From Candidatus Methylomirabilis sp. (GTDB lineage Bacteria; Patescibacteriota; DYJS01): a stretch of 42,558 nucleotides of DNA. The position numbers were made by a program, and so were the translations under genes. A model generated the notes under the pieces. That model was not told the origin of the DNA and did not search any database. It saw only the letters and a program-made list of their open reading frames with translations. Position 1 is the stretch's first letter. Each line of letters starts with the position of its first letter. Positions 28,336-31,027 of this stretch are shown piece by piece. Where the stretch lies: assembly GCA_020723005.1 (NCBI GenBank), contig DYJS01000003.1:28836-71393 (forward strand), written 5' to 3'.

Positions 28336-28602
28336 AAAATTTGAAATTTTTCAAGGTTTAAAATTTAGATACTTTTTCAAGGCTTTAAATTTTAAAATTT
28401 TTTCAAGTTTTAAACTTTCCAATTTTCTTAAACTTCTTAAAATTTTTAAACATTAAAACCTCTCTTAATCTTTCAATCTTCCCAATTTTTTCAAAATTTT
28501 TCAAATCTTTAACTTAAAAATTTTTTTAAAAACTTCAATTTTTTTAATTTTCTTGACTTCATTTTTTTTTTCTAAAAAACAAATGAAAAAATTCGTTAAA
28601 AA

Positions 28603-30057
28603 ATGAAAAAAATTTTACCAAAATTTTTTATTTCTGTTAGTTTGGTTTTAGGAAATTTAATAATGTTGGTGAAATTTGATTCGTTGGAGACGAAAAAAGT
28701 TTTTGGAGCAAATAGCTCTTGTTATGAAGATTCTGTAAATGTTTCAAATATGGAAGGTTGGGGTTTGGAAGGTGTTTGGTTGTATCAAAATAACAATTAT
28801 AATAATTCAAATTTAGATCCCTGTTCGCATTTTACATACAATCAAGTAAATTATGGAACTTGGACAAACTATGCTCCAAACTGGAATGTTGGAAATGATT
28901 CCGTTTCTTCTTTGCGAATAGTTGGAAGCTTTAAAGTCAAAATTTATAAAGATGTAAACTCATCTAGTGATGTTTTTGAATTTAACACAGGTTGGCAAAA
29001 TGAATATTACACAGAGATTGATTTGGCAAACAAAATTATAAACGGAGTTTACAATCAATGGCTTCAAGATTTTGACAATGCAATTTCTTCAATTGAAGTT
29101 GAAACGGTTTCAAATTGTGTAAATAAATATCAAACAAACTTTAATCCAAATAACTCTTCAACGATTTTTGAAAATGGAGTATATTTTTTTGAGAATGAGA
29201 ATTATGCTGGAAGATGCACATTAATGTCGATGAGAAGAGACATAAAAAGAGGAGATCAAACAATAAATACTTATGATAACTTCTTTTTTGCAGATAATAT
29301 GTGGAACTGGTTCGTTGGAAACGATGCTGTATCGTCAATTTATGTAAGATCTGGTTGGGACTTGGTTGTTAAAACCGATGCTGAAGGAAAAGGAGAATAT
29401 AAAAATCAGCAATCATCAACAACTCTTTTGGATAGTGCTTGGAATGATAAAATCTCCTCAATGGATGTAACAGACGAAGATACTGTGCAATTTTTTCTTC
29501 ACCAAGGAATATCTCCTAAATCTTTTAGAAATATAAGCTGGAGGGATGATTCTAGTGTATATAATAGTGGATTATATTATGGTGAGTATACGGAAATGTT
29601 TGAAGAGGTAAGGAGCAGATGGGATAGTTCATTAAAATCTTTAAATATTCAAAATAATTCTTCTTCAGGAACAACGTCAGTAGTAAATTTTATTCAAGAT
29701 AGATATGACAATAAGTGTGAAGTGGCAGGTGGAACAGCATTTTACTATTTAGATTCAAACAATCAAATTCAAAACGATGTTGCAGAAGGCTTTCATGGAG
29801 CAAAGTATATTGAAGTTTATGGTTATCATGATGGAATGAAAAAATATATAAATCCTGAAGATTGTATGGGCACATTATGGATATGGTCTGATAATGCAAA
29901 AATTTCTAATCTTACTCACGAATATGGTCATATGCTCAGTCTTGGTCATAATACAGATTCTCAAAATACGGTTATGAGACAAGGGATGCAAAGTATTGGT
30001 CCTCAAACAGACGACTGGTGGTATCTCAAACAGAGAAGTGAAACTTTCAAAGGGTGA
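28603..30057 (+). CDS. Secreted protein with beta/gamma-crystallin motifs and matrixin-like (metzincin) metalloprotease domain
   Basis: N-terminal signal-like segment; four (N/D)(N/D)xx(S/T)S motifs NDSVSS, DNAISS, NDAVSS, NDKISS; C-terminal HEYGHMLSLGHNTD...TVM. Confidence 0.8.
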   Translation: MKKILPKFFISVSLVLGNLIMLVKFDSLETKKVFGANSSCYEDSVNVSNMEGWGLEGVWLYQNNNYNNSNLDPCSHFTYNQVNYGTWTNYAPNWNVGNDSVSSLRIVGSFKVKIYKDVNSSSDVFEFNTGWQNEYYTEIDLANKIINGVYNQWLQDFDNAISSIEVETVSNCVNKYQTNFNPNNSSTIFENGVYFFENENYAGRCTLMSMRRDIKRGDQTINTYDNFFFADNMWNWFVGNDAVSSIYVRSGWDLVVKTDAEGKGEYKNQQSSTTLLDSAWNDKISSMDVTDEDTVQFFLHQGISPKSFRNISWRDDSSVYNSGLYYGEYTEMFEEVRSRWDSSLKSLNIQNNSSSGTTSVVNFIQDRYDNKCEVAGGTAFYYLDSNNQIQNDVAEGFHGAKYIEVYGYHDGMKKYINPEDCMGTLWIWSDNAKISNLTHEYGHMLSLGHNTDSQNTVMRQGMQSIGPQTDDWWYLKQRSETFKG

Positions 30058-30110
30058 CAAATTTGGAAAAGAATCAATAATTTTAATTTTTAAATTTTTA
30101 ATACATCAAA

Positions 30111-30917
30111 ATGAAAAAGATATTTTCTTCAAAAATCTTCATAATTTCTATTTTTTCTATTTTTTTAGGTTTTGCATATTTTTGGTTTAAAAACAGAAAC
30201 GAATACTACTATAAAGGAGAAATTGAAACATTTTTGCCACCAAATTTTTCTTCAGAAGATCTTCAAAATAACAATTTAATTGCTGAAGCAAAAACAGGAT
30301 TTATTGCAAATATGCAAATTTATGGTCCGGAAGATGAAGGAAATAGATATTTTTTTGCTTATGATGTTGTGATTGGAACACCTGTTAACAACTTTGTGGA
30401 TGAAGAACATTACAACACATATAAAACCATAACCCTTGAAGATGGAAGAACTTTTGACAATGTATTAGATAGTCAAACTTTTAGTACTTCTATAGATTTT
30501 AAAGTTTATAAATCCTTAAAAGGAAAGATTAAAGAGGGAGAAGTGATCAAACTATCTGAGAATGCAACTGTTGACAAAGGAAGTGTTATAATTGGTGCAG
30601 GAGGAGTGATTATGCAAAAAGATGTCTTTTATTTAGTATATCTTCCTTCAAAATATAGCGAAAAAGGTGCAAATGAATTTACACATAATAGTAGAAATTT
30701 TCAAGCTATTTTTAATATCGATGGTTTTGACAAAAACAACGAAAAAAATGAAAGAATTAAAGAACATAAAGCTTTAAAAGAGAAAATTTTAAAAAAATAT
30801 GCAAAGCAGATCTCTGAAGTTGCAAAAGAGGTGAATAAAGAGAGAGAAAAAGAGAAGAAAGAAAATCCAAATATTTTAACAGATGAAGCAAAAATCTCTT
30901 CAGAAGAGATAAAATAA
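30111..30917 (+). CDS. Membrane-anchored extracytoplasmic protein of unknown function
   Basis: 268 aa; N-terminal TM (IFIISIFSIFLGFAYFWF) and charged Lys/Glu-rich C-terminus; 53 nt downstream of the metalloprotease gene on the same strand. Confidence 0.65.
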   Translation: MKKIFSSKIFIISIFSIFLGFAYFWFKNRNEYYYKGEIETFLPPNFSSEDLQNNNLIAEAKTGFIANMQIYGPEDEGNRYFFAYDVVIGTPVNNFVDEEHYNTYKTITLEDGRTFDNVLDSQTFSTSIDFKVYKSLKGKIKEGEVIKLSENATVDKGSVIIGAGGVIMQKDVFYLVYLPSKYSEKGANEFTHNSRNFQAIFNIDGFDKNNEKNERIKEHKALKEKILKKYAKQISEVAKEVNKEREKEKKENPNILTDEAKISSEEIK

Positions 30918-31027
30918 AGTTAAAAGACAAAAGTTCGAAAAAGAGAGAGAAAAGTTTGGAAGATGAGAGAAATTGAGATTTGGTTTGTTAAATAAGATTT
31001 TGTAGTTTTTTAAAAATTTTGAAATAA

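Follow-up and report, generated by a model that had tools for sequence, protein, structure and literature searches.

A putative Mtz-Tim-type gene pair with a crystallin-borne metzincin, and its broken and recombined copies, in a reduced patescibacterial genome

The gene pair and its relatives

The Mtz-Tim pair of Listeria consists of a secreted metzincin that cleaves a surface-anchored, TIMP-like lipoprotein, and co-expression of Mtz and Tim weakens the cell walls of the producers and of their neighbours (PMC8235301). The TIMP-like fold of Tim rests in that paper on Phyre2 (about 60%), and the lipobox is missing in the Firmicutes relatives outside Listeria (PMC8235301). We analysed a stretch of 42,558 bp (the window) from a patescibacterial genome of 0.75 Mb in 25 contigs, the sole genome of its class in our sample. 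It contains a protease gene that is followed after 53 bp, on the same strand and with no terminator-like site between the two, by a partner gene (Table 1). The locus is flanked by a MiaB-like gene and by genes for ribosomal proteins, and no mobile-element surroundings were found. The original prediction described the first gene and overlooked both the two-gene unit and its broken, recombined copies.

Judged by homology, the window pair is a diverged member of Mtz-Tim, its two genes being homologous to Mtz and Tim, since the same HMMs match the Listeria pair and the window pair. The protease HMM, built from six plasmid-borne proteases none of which comes from this genome, selected three of 1597 frames, namely the window gene (E 1.4e-7) and two paralogs; the partner HMM, likewise built without sequences of this genome, matched the window gene (E 2.6e-5) and the paralogs on contigs C4 and C5 (8e-9 to 6e-10). 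A Listeria record displaying the published hallmarks (an upstream XRE gene, an AIMLD Met-turn and an LTAC lipobox) was recovered with E-values of 8e-26 for Mtz and 6e-29 for Tim, both HMMs having been built without the Listeria pair of the published type.

Among plasmid records, a Tim-like gene adjoins a metzincin gene in Brevibacillus, Rhodococcus, Cytobacillus, Metabacillus, Exiguobacterium and L. innocua. In the first two, the gene for an exported hypothetical protein lies within a few bases after the protease gene, and the Brevibacillus partner is similar to the gene that follows the C5 copy (E 9e-8). Tim-like genes with no annotated protease adjoining were also observed in Brevibacillus laterosporus and Listeria (L044:1801-2385, L045:1801-2409 and L046:1801-2409).

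Within the phylum, metzincins of this general kind occur in 45 of 384 genomes and partner matches in four, and the two genes stand side by side in the window genome and in two others (L052:828-2091 and L053:371-2354). In L053 the order is reversed, with Tim first, and the protease carries further C-terminal domains. Two weak partner matches were left out of the count, one being a parvulin (G048) and the other having no adjoining metzincin (G344). The original prediction proposed to look for the fused crystallin-metzincin order in other CPR genomes, a label that agrees with the genome sizes. In samples of 59 and 384 genomes of the phylum no other genome showed it, and two scans of genome contigs and a search of phages yielded no direct relatives of the fused protein.

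The window partner, with its hydrophobic N-terminal segment, is probably exported and membrane-anchored. It has no lipobox, there being no Cys after the hydrophobic segment, and searches with Pfam, NCBIfam and a PDB profile returned no TIMP or NTR homology.

Table 1. Positions in the window of the two genes, their domains and the stretches shared with other copies
Feature	Position	Strand	Basis
Shared leader (about 95 bp): -35-like TTGACT (28553-28558), start codon and first ~16 codons	28551-28652	+	Near-identity to other loci
Crystallin-metzincin (Mtz-like) gene, intact, 484 aa	28603-30057	+	ORF call, translation
Signal-peptide-like N terminus, residues 1-35	28603-28707	+	Sequence itself
Beta/gamma-crystallin domain 1 (NDSVSS 28894, DNAISS 29074)	28750-29118	+	Alignment, profile, model, Foldseek
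Beta/gamma-crystallin domain 2 (NDAVSS 29320, NDKISS 29443)	29158-29484	+	Alignment, profile
Metzincin catalytic domain, residues 290-484	29470-30057	+	HMM, profile versus PDB
Zinc-binding HEYGHMLSLGH and Met458	29917-29976	+	Sequence, alignment
Putatively recombined 5' block, intergenic DNA and partner anchor: 126/131 identical to C13	30066-30196	+	Alignment
Tim-like partner gene, 268 aa: hydrophobic N-terminal anchor, partner domain, charged C-terminal tail	30111-30917	+	HMM, synteny
Putatively recombined 3' block, partner C-terminal tail: 200/202 identical to C13	30719-30920	+	Alignment

Domains of the protease gene product

The product of the first gene starts with the signal-like segment (hydrophobic residues 10-23, with VFG/A in the window copy and AFA/V in the C4 copy), followed by two beta/gamma-crystallin domains (about residues 50-294) and, at the C terminus, a metzincin domain (about 290-484). 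The original prediction had the open reading frame and all its coordinates right, as well as the signal-like N terminus and the union of a crystallin module with a zinc protease. A secreted chimera is supported, its export being presumed. That an assembly error or a gene fusion artefact united two unrelated genes is scarcely credible: several contig ends of this 25-contig assembly do fall inside the gene family, but the window frame lies within a single contig, and two paralogs of different sequence keep the same domain order.

The four (N/D)(N/D)xx(S/T)S motifs that had been reported begin at residues 98, 158, 240 and 281, two per domain, and they exceed chance, since shuffles of the same protein gave a mean of 0.27 motifs and four or more in only 0.03%; none occurs among 9421 residues of other window genes. 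A proposed fifth, degenerate motif (WDSSLKS, residues 340-346) proved to lie in the protease, where its W aligns with a conserved Trp of the N-terminal half of metzincins. By itself the window protein scores hardly at all in Pfam, and its crystallin domain alone gave no match; the suggested comparison with Crystall succeeded for the paralogs (E 3e-5 and 8.5e-5). Twelve crystallin domains from the same genome align motif by motif, and their profile retrieved 18 PDB matches, all crystallin-type, with clostrillin as the best (E 8e-14) and Protein S, spherulin 3a and lens gamma-crystallins among the others; no non-crystallin appeared down to E 0.009, the one match named DUF1881 being a crystallin domain according to its structure title. 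The AlphaFold2 model of domain 1, made from the 12-domain alignment, is all-beta (mean pLDDT 72), and its best 16 Foldseek matches in the PDB are beta/gamma-crystallins, with probabilities of 0.96-1.00 and E-values of only 4e-3. The Greek-key fold expected around the motifs is therefore supported as a prediction for domain 1, in the form of a double Greek-key beta sandwich, and the motifs suggest that both domains are of the Ca2+-binding type.

The crystallin module is common to several exoproteins of this genome, because CAP-type proteins carry it too. Contig C7 encodes an intact 561-aa exoprotein (L030:1278-2963), located near another copy of the shared leader described below. Its N-terminal half is CAP-like, and it carries six beta/gamma-crystallin motifs; a truncated homolog lies on C17 (L009:8098-9327). 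The CAP-like assignment was made by eye and is backed only by a weak SEC10/PgrA match of the C17 homolog. Crystallin domains were also seen in two other genomes of the phylum (L017 and L018), within proteins of great length (open frames of 1820 and 913 aa) that show no metzincin within the stretch read.

Could the module be an inhibitory prodomain that keeps the protease inactive until it is removed? In many metzincins an N-terminal domain regulates the enzyme (PMC8235301), metalloproteases are blocked by inhibitors that resemble beta/gamma-crystallins (Inhibitor_I36, for example SMPI), and the protease copies and the CAP-crystallin proteins match Inhibitor_I36, above the cut-off in two CAP-type proteins. 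However, I36 and Crystall are related folds and the protease copies score higher with Crystall, relatives devoid of any N-terminal module exist, and the presence of the same module on CAP-type proteins without a protease domain indicates a role that is not tied to the protease. We regard an inhibitory prodomain as improbable.

For the C-terminal domain, the excised sequence gave weak Pfam matches that are, bar one chance match, all to metzincin families; none reached its own cut-off, M10 scoring 15.8 bits against a required 24. A joint protease profile matched MMPs in the PDB (E 2.7e-9), and tblastn against plasmids aligned 93% of the domain with a matrixin-family protease of Brevibacillus and also retrieved an M57 protease from Rhodococcus. 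Matches of the protease to AriA and to an apicomplexan microprotein were rejected as chance, their scores being low and the paralog lacking them. In the HExxHxxGxxH/D pattern, which begins at residue 439, the His, Glu, His and His are all there, and the Gly position is occupied by Ser, as originally noted. This Ser at position 8 is a recurrent variant, since it is shared with some relatives (HEFGHALSMAH, HEMGHALSLAH and HELGHALSLDH). Met458 follows the third His (His449) by nine residues; it was aligned with the Met-turn of the relatives by sequence alone, and the spacing agrees. A paralog of 39% identity retains His439, Glu440, His443, Ser446, His449, Met458 and the residues after the Met. 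No cysteine switch (PRCGxPD) occurs in the 484-aa protein.

Together these comparisons support a metzincin akin to the small matrixin-like proteases of bacteria. The earlier "matrixin-like" stands in this sense; the missing cysteine switch and the M10 score below the cut-off lend no support to membership of the matrixins proper. AlphaFold2 modelling of the full-length protein from two sequences reached a pLDDT of 34. The segment before HExxH is about nine residues shorter in the window protease than in its paralog, and the enzyme could be weak or dead because it has diverged in its Pfam score, the Ser at position 8 and this shortened segment.

Other copies, shared leader and mosaic partner gene

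Sequence searches of the genome place the cassette at about five sites, and only the window pair is fully intact. Two further protease copies share the crystallin-metzincin order, both damaged. The copy at the end of C5 has one in-frame TGA where other copies have Trp, and its partner looks frameshifted near the start. The TGA is most simply a TGG-to-TGA nonsense mutation; recoding was rejected, TGA being the terminator of several window genes, the protease gene included. The copy at the end of C4 has several stops, and its zinc motif has degraded to HEIGY with loss of a zinc His. Contig C5 also holds a deletion scar (L007:10221-10490), in which 225 bp of leader are followed about 20 bp on by 29 bp of the gene's last codons, and beyond it another partner-gene remnant (L007:9562-9960). 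C13 begins with the leader's end fused to the gene's end.

The shared leader is 95-98% identical at four loci, including contig ends of C7 (88/92), C3 (89/92) and C23 (61/62); over a longer stretch, the C5 scar and the window leader agree at 203 of 225 positions. In C3, C7 and C23 its 5' edge is sharp and falls at the TTGACT box. We would guess that the leader acts as a promoter; in a promoter scan, promoter-like sites were no more frequent than in shuffles. Unlike these near-identical leaders, the mature proteins of the copies differ by about 60%. The leader-bearing ends of C3, C7 and C23 are probably continuous with the bodies on C4, C5 and C13.

The partner gene is a mosaic. Between window positions 30066-30920 and L038:8-854 of C13, whose partner copy is frameshifted, the ends are 96% and 99% identical while the middle reaches 58% (279/484); the similarity stops at the stop codon, with nothing beyond. 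Uniform divergence cannot yield near-identical ends around a divergent middle, and the alignment is most simply explained by recombination or gene conversion among the copies.

Such exchange, through the near-identical leader and partner-gene ends, could belong to a variation system in which one expressed locus swaps its variable mature parts with silent, broken cassettes. If true, a tiny, presumably episymbiotic bacterium would possess a changing surface protease and a matching partner, but we think this unlikely. The mosaic may serve variation or be a by-product of decay, and with all other copies broken the family may be decaying. It is likewise unlikely that the window protein has lost catalysis and is now an adhesin or surface protein, from a family that a shrinking genome is losing. 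Every other copy is indeed broken (one TGA in C5, many stops in C4, deletion scars in C5 and C13), and the segment before HExxH is shortened in the window protease. The window copy, however, has no stops, retains all catalytic residues and is accompanied by an intact partner gene, whereas one zinc-binding His is already gone from the dead C4 copy.

Proposed function and comparison with known systems

We consider it reasonably likely that the locus is a two-gene module of the Mtz-Tim type, composed of a crystallin-borne metzincin and a surface-exposed cognate Tim-like partner. The first gene would encode an exported endopeptidase, zinc-dependent and belonging to the metzincin clan, carried behind two Ca2+-binding-type crystallin domains whose probable role is to stabilise it extracellularly, to keep it at a surface, or both. 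The second would place a membrane-anchored Tim-like partner on the producer's own surface, where, by analogy with the Listeria pair, it may be cleaved and released by the protease and/or restrain the protease near the producer. The protease would have as its substrates proteins of the surface or wall, either the producer's own or those of neighbouring cells. Action on host or neighbour surfaces, as first suggested, may occur; the published relative acts on its own partner lipoprotein and on the walls of producer and neighbours (PMC8235301). The cassette copies would have spread in the genome and would recombine via their near-identical leaders and partner-gene ends.

The Mtz-Tim pair itself is known; new are the crystallin fusion and the broken patchwork copies in the same genome. 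The homology widens the reach of Mtz-Tim from Firmicutes, and Rhodococcus as found here, to a phylum of small genomes, in at least three of its members, and shows the pair able to carry a crystallin module. The idea that protease and partner work together is strengthened because their adjacency is conserved across three phyla. On sequence grounds, the locus is a concrete candidate for the means by which a cell of this kind might act on the surfaces of cells, and its mosaic copies suggest that ongoing recombination reshapes the exoprotein, which is unexpected in so reduced a genome.

Compared with Mtz-Tim of Listeria monocytogenes and related Firmicutes (PMC8235301), the window pair displays the same order of an exported metzincin and then an anchored exported partner on one strand. 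It differs in the gain of two crystallin domains by the protease, in a partner with a long charged tail and no lipobox, in a location between miaB and a ribosomal protein operon instead of on a prophage or plasmid, and in the several broken mosaic copies of the same genome. The alkaline protease of Pseudomonas and its inhibitor AprI (PMC8235301) similarly combine an exported metzincin with a cognate exported regulator, but the inhibitor's fold and family differ from those of the window partner. The small matrixin-like proteases of bacteria (Pfam Peptidase_M10, MEROPS clan MA(M)) and the window protein have similar catalytic domains, with HExxHxxxxxH and Met and a C-terminal D..LK.R, but the window domain has Ser for Gly at position 8 and Asn after the third His, lacks the cysteine switch and stays under the Pfam cut-off. 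The microbial beta/gamma-crystallins clostrillin, Protein S, spherulin 3a and flavollin (3hzb) resemble the window protein in having a pair of Greek-key motifs in every domain, with (N/D)(N/D)xx(S/T)S at the end of each motif, and share the fold predicted for window domain 1; this domain differs by its longer first loop, and the module here serves a protease.
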